A stretch of DNA of 50,307 nt. Origin: Sunxiuqinia sp. (GTDB lineage Bacteria; Bacteroidota; Bacteroidia; Bacteroidales; Prolixibacteraceae). The notes under the pieces are model-generated. The model saw nothing but the letters and a program-made list of their open reading frames with translations, ran no database searches and was not told the origin of the DNA. The translations under genes were made by a program, and so were the position numbers. Location: positions 1-50,307 of the forward strand of contig JAGXIR010000013.1 of assembly GCA_024635605.1 (NCBI GenBank), written 5' to 3'. Below are positions 8,694-30,093 of this stretch, in pieces; the stretch's first letter is position 1, and each line of letters opens with the position of its first letter.

Positions 8694-8866
8694 TTAAACG
8701 ATTGTATTGAATGGGTTTTGCTATTTTGCTTTTTTGAAGGGCCCAAAGATAAGCCAGAAAAATTTAAATCAGTCCATCCTTCTCCTTTATTTCAAAAGGG
8801 GCAGGTCGGGAACAGAAGTTGGTCCCATTGCTGAGACCCGAGGCTGAAGAAACCTGCTTGCCCAAA

Positions 8867-9118
8867 AGCCAGAGTATGACGCCGGGTAGCCAGATAAACT
8901 TGCCAAGTCGCCAGACGAACTCAGCTACCCGCCAGGCGATGTCGCCAACTGTCAAGAAAGCAGTCTGCGGGAGCCAGACGAACTCAGTGATTGCCACGGA
9001 GTCAGTCCGGAGGAGCCAGACGAAGTCGCCGACCCTCCAGACGAACTCAGCGAGGAGCCAGACGATGTTGGCGGGGCGCCAGAACATCAACAGGACGCGG
9101 CAAGACGAGAAAAACACA
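8867..9118. repeat. Degenerate 21-bp tandem repeat, 12 units, core GCCAGACGAACTCAG
   Basis: Hand alignment gives units starting at 8867, 8888, 8909, 8930, 8951, 8972, 8993, 9014, 9035, 9056, 9077 and 9098, all 21 bp, with AGCCAGACGAACTCAG-like cores. Both strands are stop-free over the array. Confidence 0.88.
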
Positions 9119-9184
9119 TGAACTGGTAAATCAGGTAGGGGCTCATCGAATCAGACAGTTGCTTTGGCTAAACGCAGACAGTAT

Positions 9185-9202
9185 GGGTTTGGGCTAAAGC
9201 CC
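9185..9202 (+). repeat. REP-like palindromic element GGGTTTGGGCTAAAGCCC
   Basis: GGGCTaAAGCCC near-palindrome preceded by GGGTTT. An inverted copy lies at 9426-9444. Confidence 0.65.
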
Positions 9203-9222
9203 AGCTTGAGGCGTCGCAACGG

Positions 9223-9242
9223 CCCGGCCCTGAAGGGCCGGG
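9223..9242. repeat. Perfect GC hairpin CCCGGCCC-TGAA-GGGCCGGG
   Basis: 8-bp perfect stem with a TGAA loop, in non-coding DNA beside the REP-like element. Confidence 0.75.
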
Positions 9243-9425
9243 TTACTGACTGGTGCAGCACTCATCGTCAGTAGAAGAAAGATGATAAGCACAATCGGTA
9301 ACCTTCGAAATGACTAGAAATCACAAGCACGATCAAAAATCCCCGGAGTCATCCTATGAGAAGCCAACGATAGCATCAGTAAGCCTCGGATTCATCCGGG
9401 GGACACGAAACAGCCTGCATCGGCC

Positions 9426-9444
9426 GGGCTTTAGCCCAAAACCC
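9426..9444 (-). repeat. Inverted copy of the REP-like element (GGGCTTTAGCCCAAAACCC)
   Basis: Reverse complement GGGTTTTGGGCTAAAGCCC matches the 9185-9202 copy with one extra T. Confidence 0.65.
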
Positions 9445-9741
9445 ATTTAAAGGCGTCCAAGCCGAACAAATGACATCAAGCAGAAAACAACTGAATGGTT
9501 TACCAGCAAAAACCATTATCTTGGTGACTGGAAAATGAAGGGCGTTGGTATATTGAGCGTTCGTAAACAGTCGAACAGTTTAATAAAAAATGAGTTATAA
9601 ACTCAAGACAGCTCACCCCTCGTTACCGCTTCGCTTAAACAAGGGGCAAGCCGGAGGAGCAACCTGTTAATTCGACTTAAGGTTTGCCTCGTTAAACTAT
9701 ATAGGAATTTCTTGAACCTATTTGACTTAAAAACAAATACT

Positions 9742-25254: not shown

Positions 25255-26255
25255 TGAGCTACATTGAACAACATAAAAGGGGATTTGTCGGGACAGTTAT
25301 TTTTCACGTGATTGTTCTAATATTACTCTTGTTATTTGGATTTTTCACCAAACTTCCATTACCTGGCGAAGAAGGTATTCTTGTCAATTTTGGCAATACT
25401 GATCAGGGAAGCGGACCACAGGAACCTGCACCAAGCCGGCAAACATCACCCCCTGTTGTTCAGGAGGAAAAAGAAGTCACACCACCGCCAGTTACACCAC
25501 CTCCACCCACACCAGCAGTTTCACAGCCCGAGGTTAAGGAAGAAGTGATGACACAGGATTTCGAGGAATCTGCAGCGATTGATGCAGCCAAAAAGAAGCA
25601 GGCCGAAGAAAAAAAGCGCTTGCAGGAACAGGAAAACAAAAAAAGGCAAGAAGAGCTTGACCGGCAGCGAAAAGTAGAACTAGAAGCACAACGTAAAGTT
25701 GAACTCGAGCGTCAGCGCCAGGCCGAATTGGAACGCCAACGATTAGCAGAGGCAGCAGAACGTCAGCGAAAGGCTGAAGAGGAACGCAAACGCAAGGAAG
25801 CCGAACAACAAAAAATTGCTGAGATCAATAATCGGGCATCGAATGCTTTTGGAGCCGGAGGTGCCGGAACAAGTGATTCGGAAAGTACCGGGCAAGGCGT
25901 TTCTTCCTCTGGAGGAAACCAGGGTTCGCAGAATGGTTCACCCAACTCTCCGAATTATGGCGATGGAGGCGGACAAGGAAATGGAATTTCGTATGATTTG
26001 GGCGGCCGCGGGCATATAGATACACCTCTGCCTGTTCATCCAGGCAATGAACAAGGCAAAGTTGTTGTGACGATTCGGGTTGACCAGTCTGGTAGAGTGA
26101 TTAGCGCTGAGCCGGGTGCGCCTGGATCAAGTATTACCAATTCTCAATTTTATAAGGCTGCCCAACAGGCCGCTTTGAAAGCCCGGTTTAAAGAAGATCC
26201 GTTGGCTCCGGCGGTTCAGAAGGGTACCATTACTTATAACTTTCGATTGAATTAA
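25254..26255 (+). CDS. TonB/TolA-like energy transducer
   Basis: N-terminal TM, P-rich and K/E/R/Q-rich linker, and a C-terminal TonB-like domain (GKVVVTIRVDQSGRVISAEPGAPGSSITN…AAQQAALKARF). Start overlaps the exbD stop. Confidence 0.88.
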   Translation: MSYIEQHKRGFVGTVIFHVIVLILLLLFGFFTKLPLPGEEGILVNFGNTDQGSGPQEPAPSRQTSPPVVQEEKEVTPPPVTPPPPTPAVSQPEVKEEVMTQDFEESAAIDAAKKKQAEEKKRLQEQENKKRQEELDRQRKVELEAQRKVELERQRQAELERQRLAEAAERQRKAEEERKRKEAEQQKIAEINNRASNAFGAGGAGTSDSESTGQGVSSSGGNQGSQNGSPNSPNYGDGGGQGNGISYDLGGRGHIDTPLPVHPGNEQGKVVVTIRVDQSGRVISAEPGAPGSSITNSQFYKAAQQAALKARFKEDPLAPAVQKGTITYNFRLN

Positions 26256-29508: not shown

Positions 29509-30021
29509 ATGAGAAGAATTGGGTTATTATCGGATACACATGGCGCTCTGAGTAAGCGTATTGTGCGATTTTTTGAAAACGTTGATGAAATATGGCATGC
29601 CGGCGATATTGGCACGGAAAAATTGGCAGACAAATTAACTGATCTGAAACCCCTCCGAGCTGTTTACGGAAATATTGACGGATATGTATTACGCAGGATG
29701 TATCCCGAAACTCTTCGGTTTTTTTGTGAGGACGTTGATGTGCTAATAACCCACATCGGAGGCTATCCCGGGCGATATGAACCACGAATTCGGAAAATGA
29801 TCTATTCCAATCCTCCCCAGCTATTTATCTCCGGACACTCCCACATATTGAAAGTAATGCATGATAAAAAAACTCACTGCTTGCATATCAATCCCGGAGC
29901 TGCAGGAAATAACGGGTTTCATCATGTTTGTACCGCAGTACGTTTTAAAATTGATGGCAAGAATATTAAAGAGCTGGAAGTGTTGGAATTTGAACGATCA
30001 GAATTCTCCGATATAGAATGA
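29509..30021 (+). CDS. YfcE-type metallophosphoesterase
   Basis: MRRIGLLSDTHGALSKRIVRFFENVDEIWHAGDIG…AVYGNIDGY…FISGHSHILK…HINPGAAG. Confidence 0.93.
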   Translation: MRRIGLLSDTHGALSKRIVRFFENVDEIWHAGDIGTEKLADKLTDLKPLRAVYGNIDGYVLRRMYPETLRFFCEDVDVLITHIGGYPGRYEPRIRKMIYSNPPQLFISGHSHILKVMHDKKTHCLHINPGAAGNNGFHHVCTAVRFKIDGKNIKELEVLEFERSEFSDIE

Positions 30022-30026
30022 TAAGA

Positions 30027-30077
30027 CTATGAATTATAAATATAGAATAATAGATCTATAATTTGTAAATATAGAAT
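30027..30077 (+). repeat. Two 22-bp direct repeats at 29-bp spacing (30027-30048 and 30056-30077)
   Basis: CTATGAATTATAAATATAGAAT versus CTATAATTTGTAAATATAGAAT (19/22 identical by hand count). Palindrome ATAGATCTAT lies at 30050-30059. Confidence 0.85.
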
Positions 30078-30093
30078 TTATGGACTATATTTG
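30062..30093 (+). promoter_or_regulatory. Bacteroidota-type promoter of satD (-33 TTTG, 20-nt spacer, -7 TATATTTG)
   Basis: TTTG at 30062-30065 and TAtaTTTG at 30086-30093 match the TTTG-N19-21-TAnnTTTG consensus. The start codon GTG lies at 30098. Confidence 0.7.

Follow-up and report, generated by a model that had tools for sequence, protein, structure and literature searches.

A probably non-coding 21-bp direct-repeat array in Sunxiuqinia that may have spread as a module of helically phased binding sites

A 21-bp tandem array in Sunxiuqinia sp. is spanned by long open reading frames on both strands, each of which reads as a string of heptapeptides. The question raised by this locus is whether either peptide is real, whether the array instead acts as DNA, or whether it is simply a decaying repeat. 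The window analysed here is a stretch of 50,307 nucleotides (contig 179) from an incomplete genome, 71% complete. The point matters, as annotation pipelines would call such frames hypothetical proteins, and the array appears to be a case in which long frames on both strands, with peptide-like heptads, arise from periodic non-coding DNA. On the basis of sequence comparison, we put at about even the chance that this is one non-coding, helically phased direct-repeat array, possibly of binding sites, that has spread as a module.

A period of 21 is confirmed over positions 8868–9098. Over 230 bases, the identity at lag 21 is 0.46 at position 8867, the highest value anywhere in the 50 kb, against a background with a mean of 0.28 and an sd of 0.04, and at lag 42 it is 0.58 over 126 bases. 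A PWM scan recognises units at 8868, 8889, 8910, 8931, 8973, 9015, 9036, 9057 and 9078, all in a single 21-bp register, with spacings of 21, 21, 21, 42, 42, 21, 21 and 21; the 42-bp gaps are filled by strongly divergent units at 8952 and 8994. A previous sequence-only reading described twelve consecutive units with a conserved GCCAGACGAACTCAG core. The 21-bp array is indeed real, but there are about 11 degenerate units, the last unit of that count (at 9099) cannot be recognised, and the copy number given by Tandem Repeats Finder is only 2.7. The 15-base core occurs exactly only twice, with one further copy carrying one mismatch. The array is better described by the degenerate unit GCCAGACGA[A/T][C/G]TC[G/A][G/C]CGAnnn (129 units, 10 arrays), in which the conserved core of the family is the 9-bp CCAGACGA and the remainder is partly conserved. 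The features of the locus are collected in Table 1.

Table 1. Features of the array locus, in window coordinates.
Positions	Strand	Feature	Basis
8764..9117	-	Open frame, Trp-ending heptads, GTG start, 117 aa, judged spurious	ORF listing; no coding signal, no Pfam match
8819..9121	+	Open frame, S/T/Q-rich heptads, TTG start, 100 aa, judged spurious	ORF listing; no coding signal, no Pfam match
8826..8867	+	Relic of terminator-type hairpin, GAAACCTGCTTGCC..., truncated	Alignment with L027/L028; flanks of 12 copies compared
8868..9098	+	21-bp direct-repeat array, consensus GCCAGACGAAcTCaGCGAnnn	Lag-21 autocorrelation, PWM scan, unit list
9099..9150	+	First part of conserved tail, GGCAAGACGAGAAAAACACATGAACTGGTAAATCAGG	Alignment with L027/L028; flank comparison
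9150..9500	.	Inserted member of a different dispersed palindromic repeat family (GGGCTAAAGCCC / CCGGATTCATCCGG), splitting the tail; boundaries approximate	BLAST matches
9505..9654	+	Rest of tail, ending in GAGTTATAAACTC and the REP-type hairpin CACCCCTCGTT...AAACAAGGGG	Alignment; 79% identity to L027

A BLAST search for the unit in relatives, as the sequence-only reading had proposed, found homologous arrays at other loci in three genomes of the same genus, one of which is Sunxiuqinia dokdonensis DH1 (G005). The array or its tail is matched in six genomes of the genus, arrays also occur in one further genus of the family (G405), and the tail motif is found in Gaoshiqia sediminis as well. The arrays lie at L027, L028 and L034 in G005, at L029 and L032 in G001, at L030, L031 and L033 in G006, and at L195 and L201 in G405; L035 is a truncated array at another place in the genome of the window. 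Homology extends to the individual units, most arrays having a variant unit like TCAAGAAGTCAGTC in the same part, and a comparison of unit counts shows that homologous arrays differ by whole units. L027 and L028, which are separate loci, are 92% identical over the entire 485-bp module, from hairpin to REP-type hairpin. At the loci syntenic to the window, G001 has a short spacer with no array (L037), and G005 (L036) is without this array and has a different one. The latter (L036:2832-3083, syntenic to window position 8795) is a 21-bp array of perfect or compensated hairpin units, TCCAYG-N5-CRTGGA-ACAG, with a fold z-score of -6.3 against shuffles. Beyond the family, a scan of about 300 genomes in the phylum for the unit pattern gave one doubtful match. 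No match to two exact units turned up in the genome contigs scanned, and no earlier description of such arrays was found in the literature searched.

The complete module consists of a terminator-type hairpin, the 21-bp array, with some 10 to 14 units, and a tail about 150 bp long. In L027, L032, L030 and L201, which represent four species in two genera, the array follows the same gene, whose product ends ...RARVIVD* (the L027 protein has no Pfam match), together with the hairpin of that gene, AACCGGC..GGGGAAACC..GCCGGTT, followed in most of the four by a T-rich stretch. L028, L195 and L035 carry that hairpin at unrelated places, and the window keeps a relic of it. Since the hairpin has been carried along to unrelated places, the module has been duplicated, and the locus of the ...RARVIVD* gene would be the source of the other copies. 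Judged by alignment, the window copy is a derived and partly damaged one, with a truncated hairpin and a tail interrupted by another repeat. Within the insertion, 9186-9297 matches many loci in G005 and G003, and 9374-9448 matches L036; the remainder of the tail aligns with L027 query 380-524. The REP-type hairpin at the end of the tail is present in the window, L027 and L028, and absent in the G006 copies. Downstream of one array copy in G006 there is a Piwi-domain protein of 666 aa (L030:3631-5631, Pfam PF02171).

Both open frames are found where they had been placed, and neither has a Pfam match. The proposal that they represent a real repeat peptide under selection fails. Substitutions between homologous units are even over the codon positions in every frame (14/11/17 per phase for the window against L027, 25/30/24 for L029 against L032). 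In six frames and 11 comparisons there is no consistent excess of synonymous change: the dN/dS-type check suggested earlier, made here against a null of random placement, gives amino acid changes equal to those from randomly placed substitutions, and the single z-scores below -2 fall in different frames for different pairs. In L030, L031, L033 and L034 there are 3-6 stops in each of the two frames. Stops in orthologous arrays and an even spread of substitutions had both been named in advance as signs against a peptide.

The openness itself needs some comment. The +2 and -2 frames are open in seven arrays (the window, L027, L028, L029, L032, L195 and L201), and if substitutions are placed freely, the probability of finding zero stops is about 0.1 to 0.4 per comparison of diverged copies, which is mildly unusual and speaks for a peptide. 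When position-specific substitution patterns are kept, however, stop-free +2 and -2 frames are expected in most comparisons (P 0.36 to 1.0), and the earlier suggestion that openness on two strands could follow from a stop-free unit is borne out. Both frames are open because the core is conserved position by position and the period is divisible by three. Stops would come mainly from the core codons CAG (+) and TGG (-), and a C-to-T change in them creates CTAG, which is avoided in the sampled genome of the same genus (340 seen against about 785 expected). Coding was rejected in each of the six frames on these grounds, and the array is very probably non-coding on both strands. The two long frames would be side effects of a unit that is poor in stops and spans a whole number of codons.

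The conservation of the array was then compared between copies. Net unit spacing is always a multiple of 21 in the 12 arrays, with no non-21 net spacing in any of them; net spacing is used here because cheap-gap pairwise alignment put mostly compensating gaps inside the arrays. The next 64 bp of the tail vary in length from 63 to 65 among six copies. With units compared in a fixed register (MAFFT shifted units when sub-arrays were aligned), the core is the slower-changing part of the unit in the window copy and in those of G005: divergence is 1.6% at core sites and 7.7% in the rest for L027 against L028, and 11% and 21% for the window against L027. Information content and divergence along the unit have a correlation of -0.71. 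Within single arrays the data reject uniform decay (P 0.012 for the window, < 0.001 for L029 and L032), and in each of the six main-family arrays tested the variance between positions is larger than under the uniform-rate null, the test assuming that units are independent (a star phylogeny). Part of the core has been lost from the G006 arrays, and two of the three comparisons there show similar divergence inside and outside the core. We take the uneven conservation and the fixed register as evidence for constraint at the DNA level, with the caveats that a star phylogeny is assumed and that homogenisation, by exchange between units, could also hold the 21-bp register.

On the basis of these observations, the most likely explanation, although a tentative one that we would place somewhat below even, is that the array is a helically phased row of candidate DNA-binding sites. 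Because 21 bp corresponds to two turns of B-DNA, every core would lie on the same face of the helix, which suggests a role at the DNA level: the array would offer a protein, either sequence-specific or nucleoid-type, a series of weak sites. The loss of core in G006 and the damage to the window copy count against this, as does the fact that no core common to independent 21-bp arrays was found. The analysis turned up no binding protein, and none is known.

In iterons, the direct repeats of plasmid replication origins, units of about 17-22 bp are helically phased, which puts their sites on one face of the DNA. The array resembles them in that its direct repeats are phased at about two helical turns, with all spacings multiples of 21. 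It differs in having more units, which are far more degenerate, and in having several copies in a genome, next to housekeeping genes. A Pfam scan of neighbouring frames (YjdM/PhnA, an RNA methyltransferase, a leucine-rich repeat protein and a tricorn-type protease) identified no replication initiator beside the array. A CRISPR array was also considered and rejected: the repeats themselves are diverged, with a 9-bp core, and there is no cas gene among the neighbouring frames scanned.

Nearly as likely, and ranking just below helically phased sites, is a neutral minisatellite. The array would then have arisen by tandem duplication, been copied to several loci with neighbouring repeats, and be decaying without function, with unit exchange holding its lengths at multiples of 21. 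This agrees with the differences by whole units between homologous arrays, with the copies that are truncated (L035), interrupted (the window tail) or degenerate (G006), and with the REP-type repeats that crowd the same intergenic regions. Bacterial minisatellites and VNTR loci are likewise tandem and intergenic, with a unit number that varies between relatives. The array differs from them in that its units are strongly diverged with a conserved core, that exact register is kept over large divergence, and that it recurs at dispersed loci. Uniform decay would not give a conserved core beside a variable remainder, and the retention of one copy in the same place across four species and two genera counts against a neutral origin and for phased sites. 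The decaying minisatellite of the earlier reading is thus hard to square, on its own, with the strict 21-bp register and the slower-changing core, but it is still a serious rival.

A further proposal concerns how the copies spread, and is compatible with an array of binding sites. The module could be a non-autonomous element moved by REP-associated (Y1/RAYT) transposases, in which the array travels as a passenger between two hairpins; we consider this unlikely. Some copies do end at the REP-type hairpin, and tail matches adjoin Y1_Tnp genes in G004 and G005. In Gaoshiqia sediminis (L101:1640-2570), a Y1-type (RAYT-like) transposase frame lies between REP hairpins, the one that follows it being, as read by eye, the same hairpin; just beyond is a different 21-bp array, a relative of which occurs in L102. 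On the other side, REP hairpins do not bound every copy, those of G006 having no REP tail; an adjoining array is absent from most Y1_Tnp loci; and the hairpin on the left, at the shared locus, belongs to the neighbouring gene and is terminator-like, not a REP of the same type. REP/BIME elements and RAYT transposases are associated with GTAG- and CGTC-tagged palindromes (PMC3733652). The module is similar in being intergenic and dispersed with hairpins at or near the ends of its copies, and different in that the unit is a direct repeat, not a palindrome, and in that an array is absent from most RAYT loci.

Transcription of the module into a structured non-coding RNA is very improbable, and this reading was rejected for this family: although L027 gives a better fold than shuffles on its minus strand (z -3.9) and a terminator-like hairpin precedes the array, the window copy gives z-scores of only -0.5 and -1.4 and L029 -0.5, the RNAalifold covariation term is about zero, and there is no Rfam match for the window or four relatives. 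Least probable of all is a protein-coding heptapeptide repeat on one or both strands, which the comparisons of substitutions and stops given above have already mostly refuted.

It is of interest that 21-bp arrays of other kinds are present in the genus. In about 1.6 Mb from three of its genomes, intergenic repeats with periods of 17 to 70 fall mostly at 21-22, 41-42 and 63 bp, the non-coding filter being a simple ORF-length rule, such that a few of the listed repeats may be coding. A 400-kb sample of another genus (G017) has none at these periods and many at 11 bp. Several of the arrays found in the genus have one conserved part and one variable part. ACGAAT occurs at a 21-bp spacing in 16 partly overlapping places in G001 and G005, several new arrays among them, against one at a 20-bp spacing; MCGAAY as a core common to all 21-bp arrays received no support when arrays found independently were tested without bias. 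That periods of 21 and 41-42 bp are in excess in the genus is a lead only. Together with the two-turn spacing, this excess raises the question of phased DNA sites or of how such arrays form. A more doubtful extension is that Sunxiuqinia and Gaoshiqia might contain a whole class of degenerate arrays between genes, with a phasing of two or four helical turns (21 or 41-42 bp) and units that differ by locus, predicted to be protein docking or chromosome-organising sites; the window array would be one family of this class.

Some individual arrays deserve mention. In G003 (L011:963-1256), a 21-bp array inverts midway, with CGAGTA units followed by TACTCG units, and forms a giant interrupted palindrome. 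Two long 21-bp arrays in G005, at L219:300-551 and L222:245-454, have units CCGAATnTGYGCTCnAYGCAT and CCGAATAGAGAATGAATCACT respectively, and the former begins a few bases past an apparent gene stop codon. The G017 sample gave 13 period-11 matches in 400 kb, and contains intergenic 11-bp arrays of mirror-image palindromes (L133, L136, L137, L139, L141, L143, L147, L148 and L150), for example TTTGTTCATGG facing CCATGGACAAA. Within the window itself, a 29-bp AT-rich tandem repeat lies between two frames at 30011-30093, and a periodicity of 15 and 24 bp is seen at 25475-25720, in or near a frame of 333 aa.
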